In this document: piece by piece, positions 2,222 through 37,499 of the stretch | How the letters are laid out: every line of letters starts with the position of its first letter | Numbering within the stretch: the first letter of the stretch is position 1 | Source: an uncultured Mycoplasmatota bacterium | Lineage (GTDB): Bacteria; Bacillota_I; Bacilli_A; RF39; UBA660 | DNA: 42,117 nucleotides | Assembly: GCA_946413985.1 (NCBI GenBank) | Contig: CAMKMS010000009.1 | Span: forward strand, 1-42,117 | Reading direction: 5' to 3' | Program-made: the position numbers and the translations under genes | The notes under the pieces: model-generated | Databases searched by the model: none | What the model was told of the DNA's origin: nothing | The model's input: the letters and a program-made list of their open reading frames with translations, nothing else

Positions 2222-3517
2222 TTAAAATTTCATGTTCTTCATTTGTTTCATCATTTTTTTCATTTCTTCAAATTGCTTAAGTAATCTATTAACATCTTCT
2301 ACTCTTTGACCACAACCAGATGCTATTCTTTGTTTGCGACTAGCTTTTATAATATCAGGATTTCGTCTTTCTTCCGGTGTCATAGATAGAACAATTGCTT
2401 CTATTCGTCCCATCATTTTAGGATCAATATTTACGTTATTAAGTCCCATTTTAGATGCACCTGGAACTAATTTTAATAAGTTTTCAAGTGGACCCAATTT
2501 TCTTATTTGTTTCATTGATTTTAAGAAGTCTTCAAGATCAAATTTACCTCTTTGCATTTTCTTAGTAACACTCATCATTTCATCTTGATCAAGTTCTGCT
2601 TCTGTTTTTTCAATAATTGAAAGTAAATCTCCCATTCCAAGTATTCTATTTGCTATTCTATCTGGATAAAATTCACTTATTCCATCTAATTTTTCAGAGT
2701 CTCCAATTAATTTTATTGGAATGTTTGTCAAATGTCTTAAAGATAGTGCAACTCCACCCTTAGTATCTCCATCCATTTTTGTAAGAACACATCCAGTAAG
2801 ATTTAATTTATCATTAAAACCAGTAATAACATTAATAGCATCTTGTCCCATCATAGCATCAATCACTAATAATTCTTCATGAGGTTTAACTGCACTTTCA
2901 ATATTAACAAGTTCATTCATTAATACTTCATCTATTTGAAGACGACCGGCAGTATCTATTAAAATATAATCATATCCTTTACTTTTAGCATATTCTATTC
3001 CATTTTTAGCAATTTCAACTGGATTATTTTTTCCTTCATCATATACTTCAATATTAAGTTGTTTTCCAATGCTTTTTAATTGATCAATAGCAGCAGGTCT
3101 ATAAACATCACATGCGATAAACATAGGTTTTTTATGATGCTTTTTTCTTACCATATTACCTATTTTTCCAATAGTAGTAGTTTTTCCACCACCTTGAAGA
3201 CCAACTATCATAACAATTGTTGGATTTTTACTTACTTCTAAAGGAGAAGAATCTCCACCTAAGAGTTCTACAAGTTCATCTTTTAGTATTTTTACAAACA
3301 TATCACCTGGTTTAATTGATTTTCTAACCTCTTCTCCAAGTGCTTTTTCTTTTACTTTATCTATAAACTCTTTTACTATTTTTACATTTACATCTGCTTC
3401 TAAAAGACATAATCTAATTTCACGAACTATATCACTAATGTTATCTTCATTTATTACACCTCTAGATTTAATATTACTAACAGCACGTTGTAATCTTTCA
3501 CTTAAGTTTTCAAACAT
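2222..3517 (-). CDS. ffh: signal recognition particle protein
   Basis: [39 protein letters not shown]-terminal Met-rich M domain. Confidence 0.98.
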   Translation of the reverse strand: MFENLSERLQRAVSNIKSRGVINEDNISDIVREIRLCLLEADVNVKIVKEFIDKVKEKALGEEVRKSIKPGDMFVKILKDELVELLGGDSSPLEVSKNPTIVMIVGLQGGGKTTTIGKIGNMVRKKHHKKPMFIACDVYRPAAIDQLKSIGKQLNIEVYDEGKNNPVEIAKNGIEYAKSKGYDYILIDTAGRLQIDEVLMNELVNIESAVKPHEELLVIDAMMGQDAINVITGFNDKLNLTGCVLTKMDGDTKGGVALSLRHLTNIPIKLIGDSEKLDGISEFYPDRIANRILGMGDLLSIIEKTEAELDQDEMMSVTKKMQRGKFDLEDFLKSMKQIRKLGPLENLLKLVPGASKMGLNNVNIDPKMMGRIEAIVLSMTPEERRNPDIIKASRKQRIASGCGQRVEDVNRLLKQFEEMKKMMKQMKNMKF

Positions 3518-3644: not shown

Positions 3645-3673
3645 TTGATTAAATAATATAAATATTTTATTAT
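3645..3673 (+). promoter_or_regulatory. sigma-A-like promoter of the small hydrophobic ORF
   Basis: TTGATT - 17 bp - TATTAT; predicted TSS ~3680. Confidence 0.6.
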
Positions 3674-3734
3674 CTTTAAGAACAATTAGCTGTTAGGTTT
3701 TCCTCTTTTTATTTTTTTAATAAGGAGGTGAGAT

Positions 3735-3818
3735 ATGTCTAAGAAAGATTTTTTGATTTTATCTTTGATAATAATCATACATTTCTTATTAGTCACTCTT
3801 CTTATAGTTCTTCTGTAA
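3735..3818 (+). CDS. small hydrophobic peptide, candidate type I toxin (27 aa)
   Basis: MSKKDFLILSLIIIIHFLLVTLLIVLL; SD AAGGAGGTGA 6 nt upstream of ATG; below the ORF-track size cut-off. Confidence 0.7.
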   Translation: MSKKDFLILSLIIIIHFLLVTLLIVLL

Positions 3819-3819
3819 G

Positions 3820-3889
3820 AAAAAACCTAACTAACAGTTAGGAAAACACTTAGAGGATTACCTAAATACTAAGGCTAATTGTTCCCTCT
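3820..3889 (-). ncRNA. candidate antisense (antitoxin) RNA opposite the 3' UTR of the small ORF
   Basis: minus promoter TTTACA (3919..3924) - 17 bp - TATTAT (3896..3901); ends in hairpin CCTAAC-TGTTA-GTTAGG plus TTTTTT (3820..3842). Confidence 0.62.
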
Positions 3890-3926
3890 ATACACATAAT
3901 AGCATCTTTTATATTTTTTGTAAACA

Positions 3927-3955
3927 AAAAAGAAAATGATTTCTCATTTTCTTTT
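3927..3955 (-). terminator. rpoC intrinsic terminator, plausibly bidirectional
   Basis: AAAGAAAATGA-GAAA-TCATTTTCTTT-TTT. Confidence 0.8.
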
Positions 3956-3960
3956 ACGTT

Positions 3961-6900
3961 TTATTCAGCTTGAGAAGCAACTACTTCTTCATTCTTATCA
4001 TCAGTTAAGAATTTTTCTTCTAGTACTTCTGAAGCATCATCATCAAGTAGTTCATTTTTAAGCATAACTTCAATATTGTTATATTGTTTTGCTCCAGTAC
4101 CTGCTGGGATTAATTTACCAAGAATAACATTTTCTTTTAAACCATTTAGCATATCTACTTTACCACGAGTAGCAGCATCTGTTAATATTCTTGTTGTTTC
4201 TTGGAATGAAGCAGCAGATAAGAATGAATCTGTTTCAAGTGATGCTTTAGTAATACCAAGCATAACTGGTTTTCCAGTTGCAGGTACTCCACCATTTAAG
4301 ATTACTGGCTTATTAATATCAGCAAATTCTCTTAGAGGAACACTTAATCCTTCAATAAGATTTGTATCTCCTGGATTAACTACTTTAACCTTAGTAATCA
4401 TTCTCTTAATAACAGTTTCAATATGTTTATCTGAAACATCAACACCTTGAGATTTATATACTTTTTGAACTTCTTTTAATATATATTCTTGAACTGTTGT
4501 TGGATCTGTTACTGCAAGTAATTCTTTTGGACTGATGCTTCCTTCAGTTAAAGCAGTACCAGCATCAATGATATCACCCTTTTCAACTTTTAATTTAGCA
4601 TTATATTGAGTGATATGTTCACGAGTCTCAACATTATTTGTAATATATATTTTAAATCTACCATTTTTATCATCAGAAATTTTAGTAATTTTTCCACCAA
4701 TTTCAGCAATAGTAGCTTTAGCTTTTGGAATTCTTGCTTCAAATAGCTCTTCTACTCTTGGAAGACCTTGAGTAATATCAGCAGCTGATGCAACACCACC
4801 TGTATGGAATGTACGCATTGTTAACTGAGTACCAGGTTCACCAATTGATTGAGCAGCCATAATACCAGTAGCTTCACCTACTTCAACAACATTTCCTGTT
4901 GCTAAGTTAAGTCCATAACATTTTTGACAAATTCCATTTGCACATCTACATGTTAGAATGCTTCTAATTTCCATTTTTGTAATTCCAGCACCAACAATTT
5001 TATCAGCAATTTTTTCAGTAATTAATGCACCCTTATCAACTAAAACTTCTTTAGTTTCTGGATGTAATACTTTTTGATTTGAGTATCTACCTAAAATTCT
5101 ATCTCTGAATGATTCAATAACAGCACCACTATTTTCATCAGTAAATGCTTCTACTTCTAATCCTTGGATAGTTCCACAATCTTCTTCTTTTACAATTATA
5201 TCTTGAACAACATCAACTAAACGTCTTGTTAAGTATCCAGCATCTGCTGTCTTTAAGGCAGTATCAGCTGTTCCTTTTCTAGAACCATGTGTTGATAAGA
5301 AGAATTCTTGAACGTCTAATCCTTCACGGAATGAAGCAAGAATTGGAATTTCTACTTGACCACCATCTGGTTTAGCCATGATACCACGCATACCAGCTAA
5401 TTGTCCTAATTGGTTAGCAGAACCTCTGGCTCCAGAATTGATAATCATTGAAAGTGGATTTTCAACATCCTCTTTTAAGATATCTCCTAATTTTCCTTGA
5501 ACATTATTAGTAGCATCTGTCCATAATTTAATAACTTTATTATGTCTTTCTTCATCAGTTATAAGACCACGTTTATATTGTTTATTAATCTTTTCAACTG
5601 CTTCATTTGTTTCTTTAATAATTTCTTCTTTTTCATGATTGATTGGAATATCAGAAAGAGAAATTGTAATACCAGATTTAGTACTATACTTAAATCCTTG
5701 ATCTTTTAGTGCATCTAAGAATATTGAAGTTTCAGTAGTCTTATATCTTTTAAATATTTGAGTAATTATTTTTCCTAAATCTTTTTTAACTAATGCAGGA
5801 ATTAAAGGCATTTTTGCAACTTCTTCTGGTAAATTCTTTCCTTTTTCAATAAAGAATTTATCTGGAGTCATTAATTCAATATTTTCTTTACTTCCTTCAC
5901 AAATGAATGGATAAGTATCAGGTAATATTTCATTAAATATAATTTTTCCTGCTGTTGTAACTAAATATTTTTCTCTTTGTTCATCAGTCCATATCTTATG
6001 TCTGAAAGCTTTAGCAGGTACACATACTCTTGTATGAAGAGTAATATCTCTTCTTTCATATGCCATTAATATCTCATTTGCATCTTTATATGCTTTACCT
6101 TCATTAGGTTCACCTGCAAGCTCTAGTGTTAAATAATAATTTCCTAAAACCATATCTTGAGATGGTGTAACAATTGGTTTTCCATCTTTTGGATCTAAGA
6201 TATTATTAGCACCTAACATTAAAAGTCTTGCTTCAGCTTGAGCCTCTTCACTAATTGGAATATGGATAGCCATTTGGTCTCCATCAAAGTCTGCATTAAA
6301 TCCACCACAAACAAGTGGGTGTAATCTAAGAGCTTTTCCACTAACTAGTACTGGTTCAAAAGCTTGAATTGAAAGTCTATGTAGTGTTGGAGCACGGTTT
6401 AACATAACTGGATGTTCACGAATAACATCTTCTACTACATCCCATACTCTTTCATCTTGTACATCTATAATCTTTTTAGCAGCTTTAACATTGTGTGCTA
6501 TACCTCTTTCAACTAATTGTTGCATTACATATGGTTTAAATAACTCTAAAGCCATTTCTTTTGGTACACCACATTGATACATCTTTAGGCTTGGCCCTAC
6601 AGCAATAACACTACGTCCTGAGTAATCAACTCTTTTACCAAGTAGGTTTTGTCTAAATCTACCTTGTTTACCTTTTAACATAGAAGATAATGATTTAAGT
6701 GGTCTATTACCAACTCCTGAAACACTTCTTCCACGTCTTCCATTATCAATTAGAGCATCTACTGCTTCTTGAAGCATACGTTTTTCATTTTGAACAATGA
6801 TTGTTGGTGCTTCTAATTCTAATAATTTTTTAAGACGATTATTTCTATTAATAATTCTTCTATATAAATCATTTAAATCACTTGTTGCAAATCTTCCACC

Positions 6901-7635
6901 TGGAAGTTGAATCATTGGTCTTAAATCTGGTGGAATAACTGGAAGAACATCCAAAATCATCCATTCAGGTCTATTACCGCTTTCCAAAAATGCATTTAAG
7001 CAATCAAGTCTTTTAATTAATCTCATTTTCTTTTGACCTTGAGATTTTTCAACTTCTTTCTTAAGAGCATTTACTTCTTTTTCTAGATCTACTTCACTAA
7101 GTAATTCTTTTATAGCTTCAGCACCCATTCCAACTCTGAATTCATCACCATATTTTTCATAATATGCTCTGTATTCTTTGTCAGATAAAGTTTGTTTTTT
7201 AACAAGTGGTGCAATTCCTGGATCAAGTACTATATAACTTACAAAGTATAGTACTTCTTCAAGTTCACGAGGAGAAATATCTAGTACAAGGCCCATTTTT
7301 GGAGGTACACCTTTAGCATACCAAATGTGGCTTACTGGACAAGCAAGTTCAATATGTCCCATTCTTTCACGTCTTACTTTAGCACGTGTAACTTCTACAC
7401 CACATCTATCACAAATTACATTTTTATATCTTAATCTTTTGTACTTCTTACAAGCACATTCAAAATCTTTAGTTGGTCCGAAAATCTTTTCACAGAAAAG
7501 TCCATCCCTCTCAGGGCTTAGAGTTCTATAGTTAATTGTTTCAGGTTTCTTAACTTCTCCATAAGACCATTCACGAATTTTATCAGGAGATGCTATTCCT
7601 ATACGAATTCCTTCAAAATCATTAACTTCGTCCAT
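3961..7635 (-). CDS. rpoC: DNA-directed RNA polymerase subunit beta'
   Basis: [12 protein letters not shown], zinc-binding CxCGxC motifs, trigger-loop region. Confidence 0.99.
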
Positions 7636-36281: not shown

Positions 36282-37292
36282 TTAATCCTCATCCTTTTTT
36301 TCATTATTATCAAATAAGTCATGTCTAACTTTTTCTTCAATTTCTTTAAATAGTTCTGGATTTTCTTTTAATAAAAGTTTTACATTTTCTTTACCTTGTC
36401 CAATTTTTTCACCTTTGTAACTAAACCATGCTCCACTCTTATCAATTATTCCAATATTAGAAGCAATATCAATTACTTCTCCAATTCTTGAAATACCTTC
36501 CCCATACATTATTTCAACTTCAGCAGTTTTAAATGGAGGAGCAACTTTATTCTTAACTACTTTAATTACAGTTTTATTTCCAAGAACATCACCATTTACT
36601 TTTATTTGTTCACTACGTCTTACATCTAATCTAATTGTTGAATAAAATTTTAAAGCTCTTCCACCAGGTGTTGTTTCTGGATTTCCAAACATTATACCAA
36701 CCTTTTCTCTCAATTGATTAATAAATATACAAATAGTATTAGTTTTATTAATAACTCCACTTAACTTTCTTAATGCTTGTGACATTAATCTTGCTTGTAA
36801 ACCAACATGTGAATCTCCCATTTCACCTTCTATTTCAGCTTGAGGAACAAGTGCTGCAACTGAATCAATAACTATTATACTCATTGCCTCACTTCTTACA
36901 AGAGCTTCAACTATTTCAAGAGCTTGTTCTCCTGTATCAGGTTGACTCAATAAAAGATTATCAGTATCAACTCCTAATTTTTTTGCATATACAGGATCAA
37001 GCGCATGTTCAGCATCAATAAAAGCAGCTCTACCTCCAAGTTTTTGAACTTCAGCTATAGCATGTAAAGCAATTGTAGTTTTACCACTTGATTCTGGTCC
37101 AAATACTTCAATAATTCTTCCTTTTGGATATCCCCCTACACCTAGTGCTTGATCTAAAGCAATTGATCCACTAGATACAACATCTATATTCTTAACACCT
37201 TTTTCTCCTAATTTCATTATTGCGCCTTTGCCAAATTGTTTTTCAATATCAGCTAAGACTTGATCTAATGTTTTATCTTTCTCTTTTTTCAT
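36282..37292 (-). CDS. recA: recombinase RecA
   Basis: [17 protein letters not shown]; full-length RecA. Confidence 0.99.
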
Positions 37293-37347: not shown

Positions 37348-37499
37348 CAATTTTTTACAAACTTTTGTTTGTTTATTTTTCAATTATAAAAAAATAATTA
37401 TTTGTATAATTATTTTTTGTTTTAAAATAGTGATAAATAATTATATTTTATGAGTTTTAATACATATAAATCATCAAAATATAGTTTTAAAAAAATAAC

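Follow-up and report, generated by a model that had tools for sequence, protein, structure and literature searches.

The window analysed here, meaning the whole 42,117-nt stretch of DNA, carries ffh (2222-3517, minus strand) and rpoC (3961-7635, minus strand), and between these two genes lies a plus-strand module at 3645-3889. The parts of the module and of the gene that converges on it are as follows.

3645-3673, plus strand: promoter of the putative toxin mRNA (TTGATT at 3645-3650, 17 nt, TATTAT at 3668-3673), with a predicted start near 3680
3680-3734, plus strand: 5' leader of the toxin mRNA, about 55 nt, as predicted from the promoter
3680-3690, plus strand: 5' arm of a predicted long-range helix, GAACAATTAGC, complementary to 3874-3884, with co-variation across copies
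3692-3701, plus strand: leader core, GTTAGGTTTT, complementary to the post-stop segment at 3822-3831 (10/10 pairs)
3722-3731, plus strand: Shine-Dalgarno sequence (SD), AAGGAGGTGA, preceding the 27-codon ORF
3735-3818, plus strand: ORF for a 27-aa hydrophobic peptide, MSKKDFLILSLIIIIHFLLVTLLIVLL, a putative membrane toxin (family pN/pS 0.25)
3822-3831, plus strand: post-stop segment, AAAACCTAAC, predicted to pair with the leader core; its opposite strand is part of the antisense terminator
3874-3884, plus strand: 3' arm of the predicted long-range helix, GCTAATTGTTC, partner of 3680-3690
3896-3924, minus strand: promoter of the antisense RNA (TTTACA at 3924-3919, 17 nt, TATTAT at 3901-3896), with a TG-extended -10
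3820-3889, minus strand: predicted antisense RNA (putative antitoxin), about 65-70 nt, as judged from its promoter and terminator; conserved
3820-3842, minus strand: antisense intrinsic terminator (stem 3842-3826, six T at 3825-3820), ending one base past the toxin stop codon

The first-pass annotation of this DNA had read the gap as a type I toxin-antitoxin locus, and all the elements that it named were found in place when the sequence was re-read. The predicted antisense RNA is complementary to the entire toxin 3'UTR and leaves the coding region free, as had been claimed. In the region of the window copy 12 promoter-like sites were counted, a chance-level number given the 10.5 +/- 3.6 of shuffles, and two terminators against 0.3 +/- 0.8. 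Since promoters alone are not beyond chance in a single sequence, the case is made by conservation in relatives. On the plus strand, the search for an intrinsic terminator of the window copy's mRNA was negative, so that neither the 3' end of this mRNA nor the proposed length of ~270 nt is established.

Related peptides were present in 27 genomes in an initial search of 60 relatives. From a single lineage of uncultured Bacilli, of family rank, 389 genomes in 152 genera were then searched with a 17-member profile, and matches were obtained in 215 of the genomes and 105 of the genera, at 0 to 13 copies per genome; at the threshold used (0.01 per genome) a few weak rows may be chance, most best matches being below 1e-6. 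When 397 genomes from the class and 396 from the phylum were sampled, the peptide family turned up in this same lineage only. A strict, tblastn-confirmed contig search with the 27-aa query returned two metagenome-assembled genomes labelled 'Bacilli bacterium', one of them from goat cecum; size, AT-richness and gene content point to the GTDB order RF39. The family was not seen in the viral contigs searched, and the sites examined did not lie within prophage or skin elements. A tblastn search of plasmids and phages likewise gave no family match, a weak negative because the low-complexity filter may mask such hydrophobic peptides.

The consensus of the family is M[SNT]KKD[FL]LI.SL.III.LL..LLF.VL., and its conserved core is M-x-K-K-D with an unbroken hydrophobic helix after it. 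There are 126 copies that score above 30 bits, nearly all of which have an SD. Peptide and SD are conserved in relatives, in agreement with the leader, SD and 27-aa ORF first proposed for the window, and a GAACA...GTTAGG motif in the leader is kept across the family. Among 3125 pairs of coding sequences the mean pS is 0.42 and the mean pN 0.10, a ratio of 0.25, and pN is the smaller of the two in all 3125. The peptide coding sequence is under purifying selection.

Both promoters proposed at first reading, TTGATT-17-TATTAT for the mRNA and TTTACA-17-TATTAT for the convergent RNA, recur in related copies. Three such copies, the syntenic ones of G005 and G007 and a second one in G007, retain the hexamers of both promoters at a distance of exactly 17 nt, although the spacer sequences have diverged. 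In the window copy and these three copies the sense promoters read TTGATT or TTGCTT, 17 nt, then TATTAT or TATCAT, and the antisense promoters TTTACA or TTGTTT, 17 nt, then TATTAT, TAATAT, TATATT or TATAAT. Family-wide, 77 of 114 copies have a minus-strand promoter with a -35 element and a TG-extended -10, where shuffles give 3.1 (maximum 9); it lies at a constant ~122 nt past the toxin stop. The terminator that the first-pass annotation had placed beside the toxin stop codon recurs as well: of 115 copies, 107 have a minus-strand hairpin with a T-run directly 3' of the stop, where a control stretch of the same length yields 4, and the median of 6 nt between stop codon and terminator stem is filled by the T-run. 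A sense-strand terminator, ~82 nt beyond the antisense terminator, is present in 70 of 115 copies and in none of the window type.

At the predicted antisense 5' end, most copies (for example L104 and L072) have a small inverted repeat (CAAG..CTTG, GAAG..CTTC, GTAAG..CTTAC), which may co-vary. Copies of the window type are without it.

The toxin mRNA is predicted to be strongly folded upon itself. For the predicted 211-nt mRNA of the window copy the folding energy is -63.8 kcal/mol, against -36.1 +/- 3.9 kcal/mol in shuffles (z -7.1), and z drops to -1.1 when the 3'UTR is left out; the corresponding medians for 48 diverged representatives are -6.8 and -1.9. In the window fold the first 11 nt are paired with 3874-3884, and in the full-length fold the SD region (3717-3730) pairs with coding bases 3778-3792. 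All 48 representatives are predicted to have at least 10 of their first 26 nt paired with the 3'UTR.

Co-variation across copies points the same way. The leader core pairs more strongly with its cognate post-stop segment (-12.1 kcal/mol) than with segments swapped in from other copies (-9.4 kcal/mol, z -9.9), and the swap test of the leader against the 3' end gives z -12.3. These z-scores from shuffles and swaps are inflated by the kinship of the copies; the controls, which were drawn from the same copies, are null (promoter z 0.1, coding z -1.6). Between leader core and post-stop segment 455 of 480 pairs are formed (null 405 +/- 5), with 50 double-compensatory cells against 15 +/- 4. Examples of co-varying pairs are GTTGGGTGAT/ATCACCTAAC, GTTGGGTGCT/AGCACCTAAC and GTTAGGCGTT/AACGCCTAAC, the window pair being GTTAGGTTTT/AAAACCTAAC. 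The leader also co-varies with the antisense RNA (z -4.8), as is expected because leader and terminator stem share a repeat, and from the sequences a pairing of antisense RNA and leader is possible.

Many members of the family have a LexA box. The motif [AG]AAC-N4-GTT[TC] lies upstream of the toxin -10 in 49 of 115 copies, against 1.1 expected from flanking DNA, and 46 of the 49 boxes fall within three adjacent positions; the antisense promoters of family copies have 0. The lexA gene was found in 24 of 25 lineage genomes, and C[AG]AAC-N4-GTT[TC]G precedes almost every recA gene and the majority of lexA genes examined, with lexA often having it twice. Because the boxes are common to recA and lexA, we infer that DNA damage would induce the boxed copies, whose layout would be that of an SOS-induced toxin with a LexA-independent antitoxin. 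The window copy was searched for a box without success, and the copies closest to it are also without one, so SOS control would apply to other members of the family and not to the window copy. In the genome to which the window belongs (77% complete) lexA was not found. LexA-controlled toxins are known in E. coli, namely tisB, symE and dinQ (PMC5848175, PMC4147584). SOS-linked type I toxins are documented for E. coli (PMC5848175), and in the literature searched we found none for Gram-positive lineages.

Two side observations concern the boxes of SOS genes. A palindrome in the window, CAAACAAAAGTTTG at 37358-37371, lies 79 nt upstream of recA (36282-37292, minus strand) and is presumed to be the LexA box of this genus. 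The lexA promoters L160, L162, L165-L167, L171, L173 and L177 have two or three boxes ~28 nt apart, which suggests tight autoregulation.

The gap between ffh and rpoC differs among relatives. The module is intact in the window's own genome (G000) and in G005 and G007, whose peptides are 74% identical to that of the window. These are three species. In a fourth, G004 (L196), the promoter, leader and first part of the ORF are lost and the antisense promoter (TTTACA-17-TATATT), antisense RNA and terminator are retained; in a fifth, G012, ffh and rpoC are adjacent and the module is absent. Loss of the toxin ahead of the antitoxin would be the order expected of an addictive pair, and the remaining antisense gene of G004 might protect against toxins of other copies. 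In G001 (L193) the same gap contains a small membrane ORF of another kind on the minus strand, along with a hairpin, GCCTAACTATTAGTTAGGC, that resembles the module terminator.

Copies also occur side by side. We counted 19 pairs of neighbouring copies on one locus, all on the same strand and mostly spaced 333-462 bp apart. A DNA search of the window's own genome for repeat copies returned low-complexity matches only, and two further copies there were detected only by the profile: a tandem 429 bp apart on another contig (G000:C18:11176-11685; L076, L207), adjoining core genes and placed between radical-SAM-like and recG-like genes, with promoters that have no LexA box. A separate locus, L079 (G274:C4), shows three copies in tandem, 333-337 bp apart, whose peptides differ slightly.

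We suggest that the module is, very probably, a chromosomal type I toxin-antitoxin system of a new toxin family. This had been the reading of the first-pass annotation, and every prediction of it that could be tested in the sequence came out positive: selection, antisense promoter and terminator, co-varying self-pairing, tandems and decay. That annotation had not noticed the LexA boxes, the long-range pairing within the mRNA or how large the family is. We infer from sequence that both RNAs are made. The plus-strand gene would give a short mRNA that encodes a membrane peptide of 27 aa with a single helix; this peptide may insert into the membrane, harm it when overproduced and stop growth. The mRNA would be silent by design: the predicted fold and the co-variation suggest that its 5' end is paired with its 3' end and that the SD is held in a helix. 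From the convergent promoter a short antisense RNA would run over the complete 3'UTR and stop at the stop codon, and it could act by pairing with the 3'UTR and by means of the repeat in its terminator stem that resembles the leader. If txpA/RatA and bsrG/SR4 are a guide, such pairing may lead to degradation by RNase III, to a closed SD, or to both. In boxed copies DNA damage would switch on the toxin and not the antitoxin, as in E. coli tisB/istR-1.

A membrane-helix peptide is readily taken for a toxin, and selection would look the same on a harmless peptide with a regulatory role. The product could be a non-toxic micropeptide that tunes a membrane protein, with the antisense RNA merely setting its level, and the conserved charged N-terminus (KKD) and helix, together with the core genes that adjoin the module, would suit such a role. 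We nevertheless consider it unlikely: the copy number is very uneven (0 to 13), tandems occur, many close relatives have no copy and decay takes the toxin half first, all of which is unlike a housekeeping regulator, and layered silencing by SD helix, 5'-3' lock and antisense RNA suggests a costly product. Still less probable is a selfish, MITE-like repeat with GGAACA...TGTTCC as its terminal repeats and the peptide as an incidental feature. Purifying selection at the codon level argues against it in spite of the multi-copy, tandem occurrence and the inverted ends; those ends, which lie inside both promoters, can be accounted for by the copy-specific, co-varying pairing of mRNA 5' and 3' ends, and the viral contigs, phages and plasmids searched gave no match.

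Two further explanations have next to no probability in our estimation. A short ORF with a strong SD and hairpins after it recalls a leader peptide or attenuator, in which the hairpins would control read-through into a downstream gene; gene order refutes this for the window copy, where no same-strand gene follows and rpoC is on the opposite strand, and the conserved terminator acts on the minus strand. That a chance ORF met chance promoter and terminator matches in an AT-rich spacer would agree with promoter matches at shuffle level, but is refuted by family conservation and selection, given 126 scored copies with purifying selection and with promoters and terminator conserved.

If the type I toxin-antitoxin reading is right, a large, uncultured gut lineage has a toxin family without detectable relatives in more than half of its genomes sampled here. 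The type I toxins described so far stem from a small number of cultured phyla, and searches favour relatives of toxins already known (PMC12390103). The family also offers natural replicates (~120 aligned copies, tandem arrays, and intact, decayed and empty sites), in which RNA pairing and decay order can be read directly, and the LexA boxes tie it to the SOS response. More tentatively, and with rather less than even confidence, we propose a lineage-wide, multi-copy set of SOS-induced type I toxins whose RNA locks are private to each copy, so that tandem copies do not silence one another, and which LexA fires as a dormancy or population-level response. The private lock in that proposal would consist of the leader and its two alternative 3'UTR partners, diverging copy by copy. 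If it is true, small-genome gut bacteria would gain dormancy or a population-level response to DNA damage.

The claim that the peptide is unlike any known toxin family has held. Whether one member or several were used as query, no family of Pfam, NCBIfam or PHROGs scored over the cut-off, and Rfam reported just two tRNAs and one sub-threshold L20_leader match in the window region and twelve related loci. Literature searches for RF39 together with toxin-antitoxin, and for the peptide motif, found no paper. The holin-like profile Hol_Tox (PF16935; TxpA/BsrG) had no match over the cut-off in ten lineage genomes and none at the module loci, which rules out membership. Fst_toxin (PF13955) had none over the cut-off in ten genomes and no weak match at the module loci. 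It is because the peptide belongs to none of Fst/Ldr, Hol_Tox, Pfam, NCBIfam, PHROGs or Rfam that we call the family new.

The Fst system, par of pAD1, is nevertheless similar in layout: both have convergent promoters and a small membrane peptide with a charged N-terminus, and the sequestered SD and 5' end of par, as well as its direct repeat between leader and antisense terminator, are also present here. The Fst/Ldr signature is a tryptophan between the membrane helix and a highly charged C-terminus (PMC7472228). In the alignment of our family the tryptophan, the PXXXG motif and the charged C-terminal tail are all missing. Moreover, Fst/Ldr systems have a bidirectional terminator common to both RNAs, whereas here the antisense terminator is separate from that of the mRNA. 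Without the tryptophan signature, charged tail, shared terminator or a profile match, membership in Fst/Ldr is ruled out.

The Ibs peptides of E. coli are multi-copy, very short and nearly all hydrophobic, each with a cis antisense RNA, and our family is like them in these respects. Sib RNA, however, spans the whole ibs gene, whereas the antisense RNA here leaves the coding region free, and no Ibs family match was found. In the hok mRNA of plasmid R1 the full-length fold puts the 5' end on the 3' end, as is also predicted here. The hok antisense RNA targets the leader; here it covers the 3'UTR instead, and the match to Hok is sub-threshold (E 0.12).

With tisB/istR-1 the family shares a very small hydrophobic peptide (TisB has 29 aa; PMC4147584). 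LexA acts there at the toxin promoter and the antitoxin promoter is box-free, and many of our family members have the same arrangement. The tisB and istR-1 genes are divergent and their RNAs partly complementary, whereas the genes here converge. Convergent RNAs that overlap at their 3' ends only are found in txpA/RatA and bsrG/SR4 as well; the overlap of txpA and RatA is ~75 nt and leaves coding region and SD untouched (PMC4147584), and the predicted overlap here is ~70 nt. TxpA, with 59 aa against 27 aa here, is unrelated in sequence, and, unlike the antisense RNAs of both those systems, the one predicted here ends exactly at the toxin stop codon.
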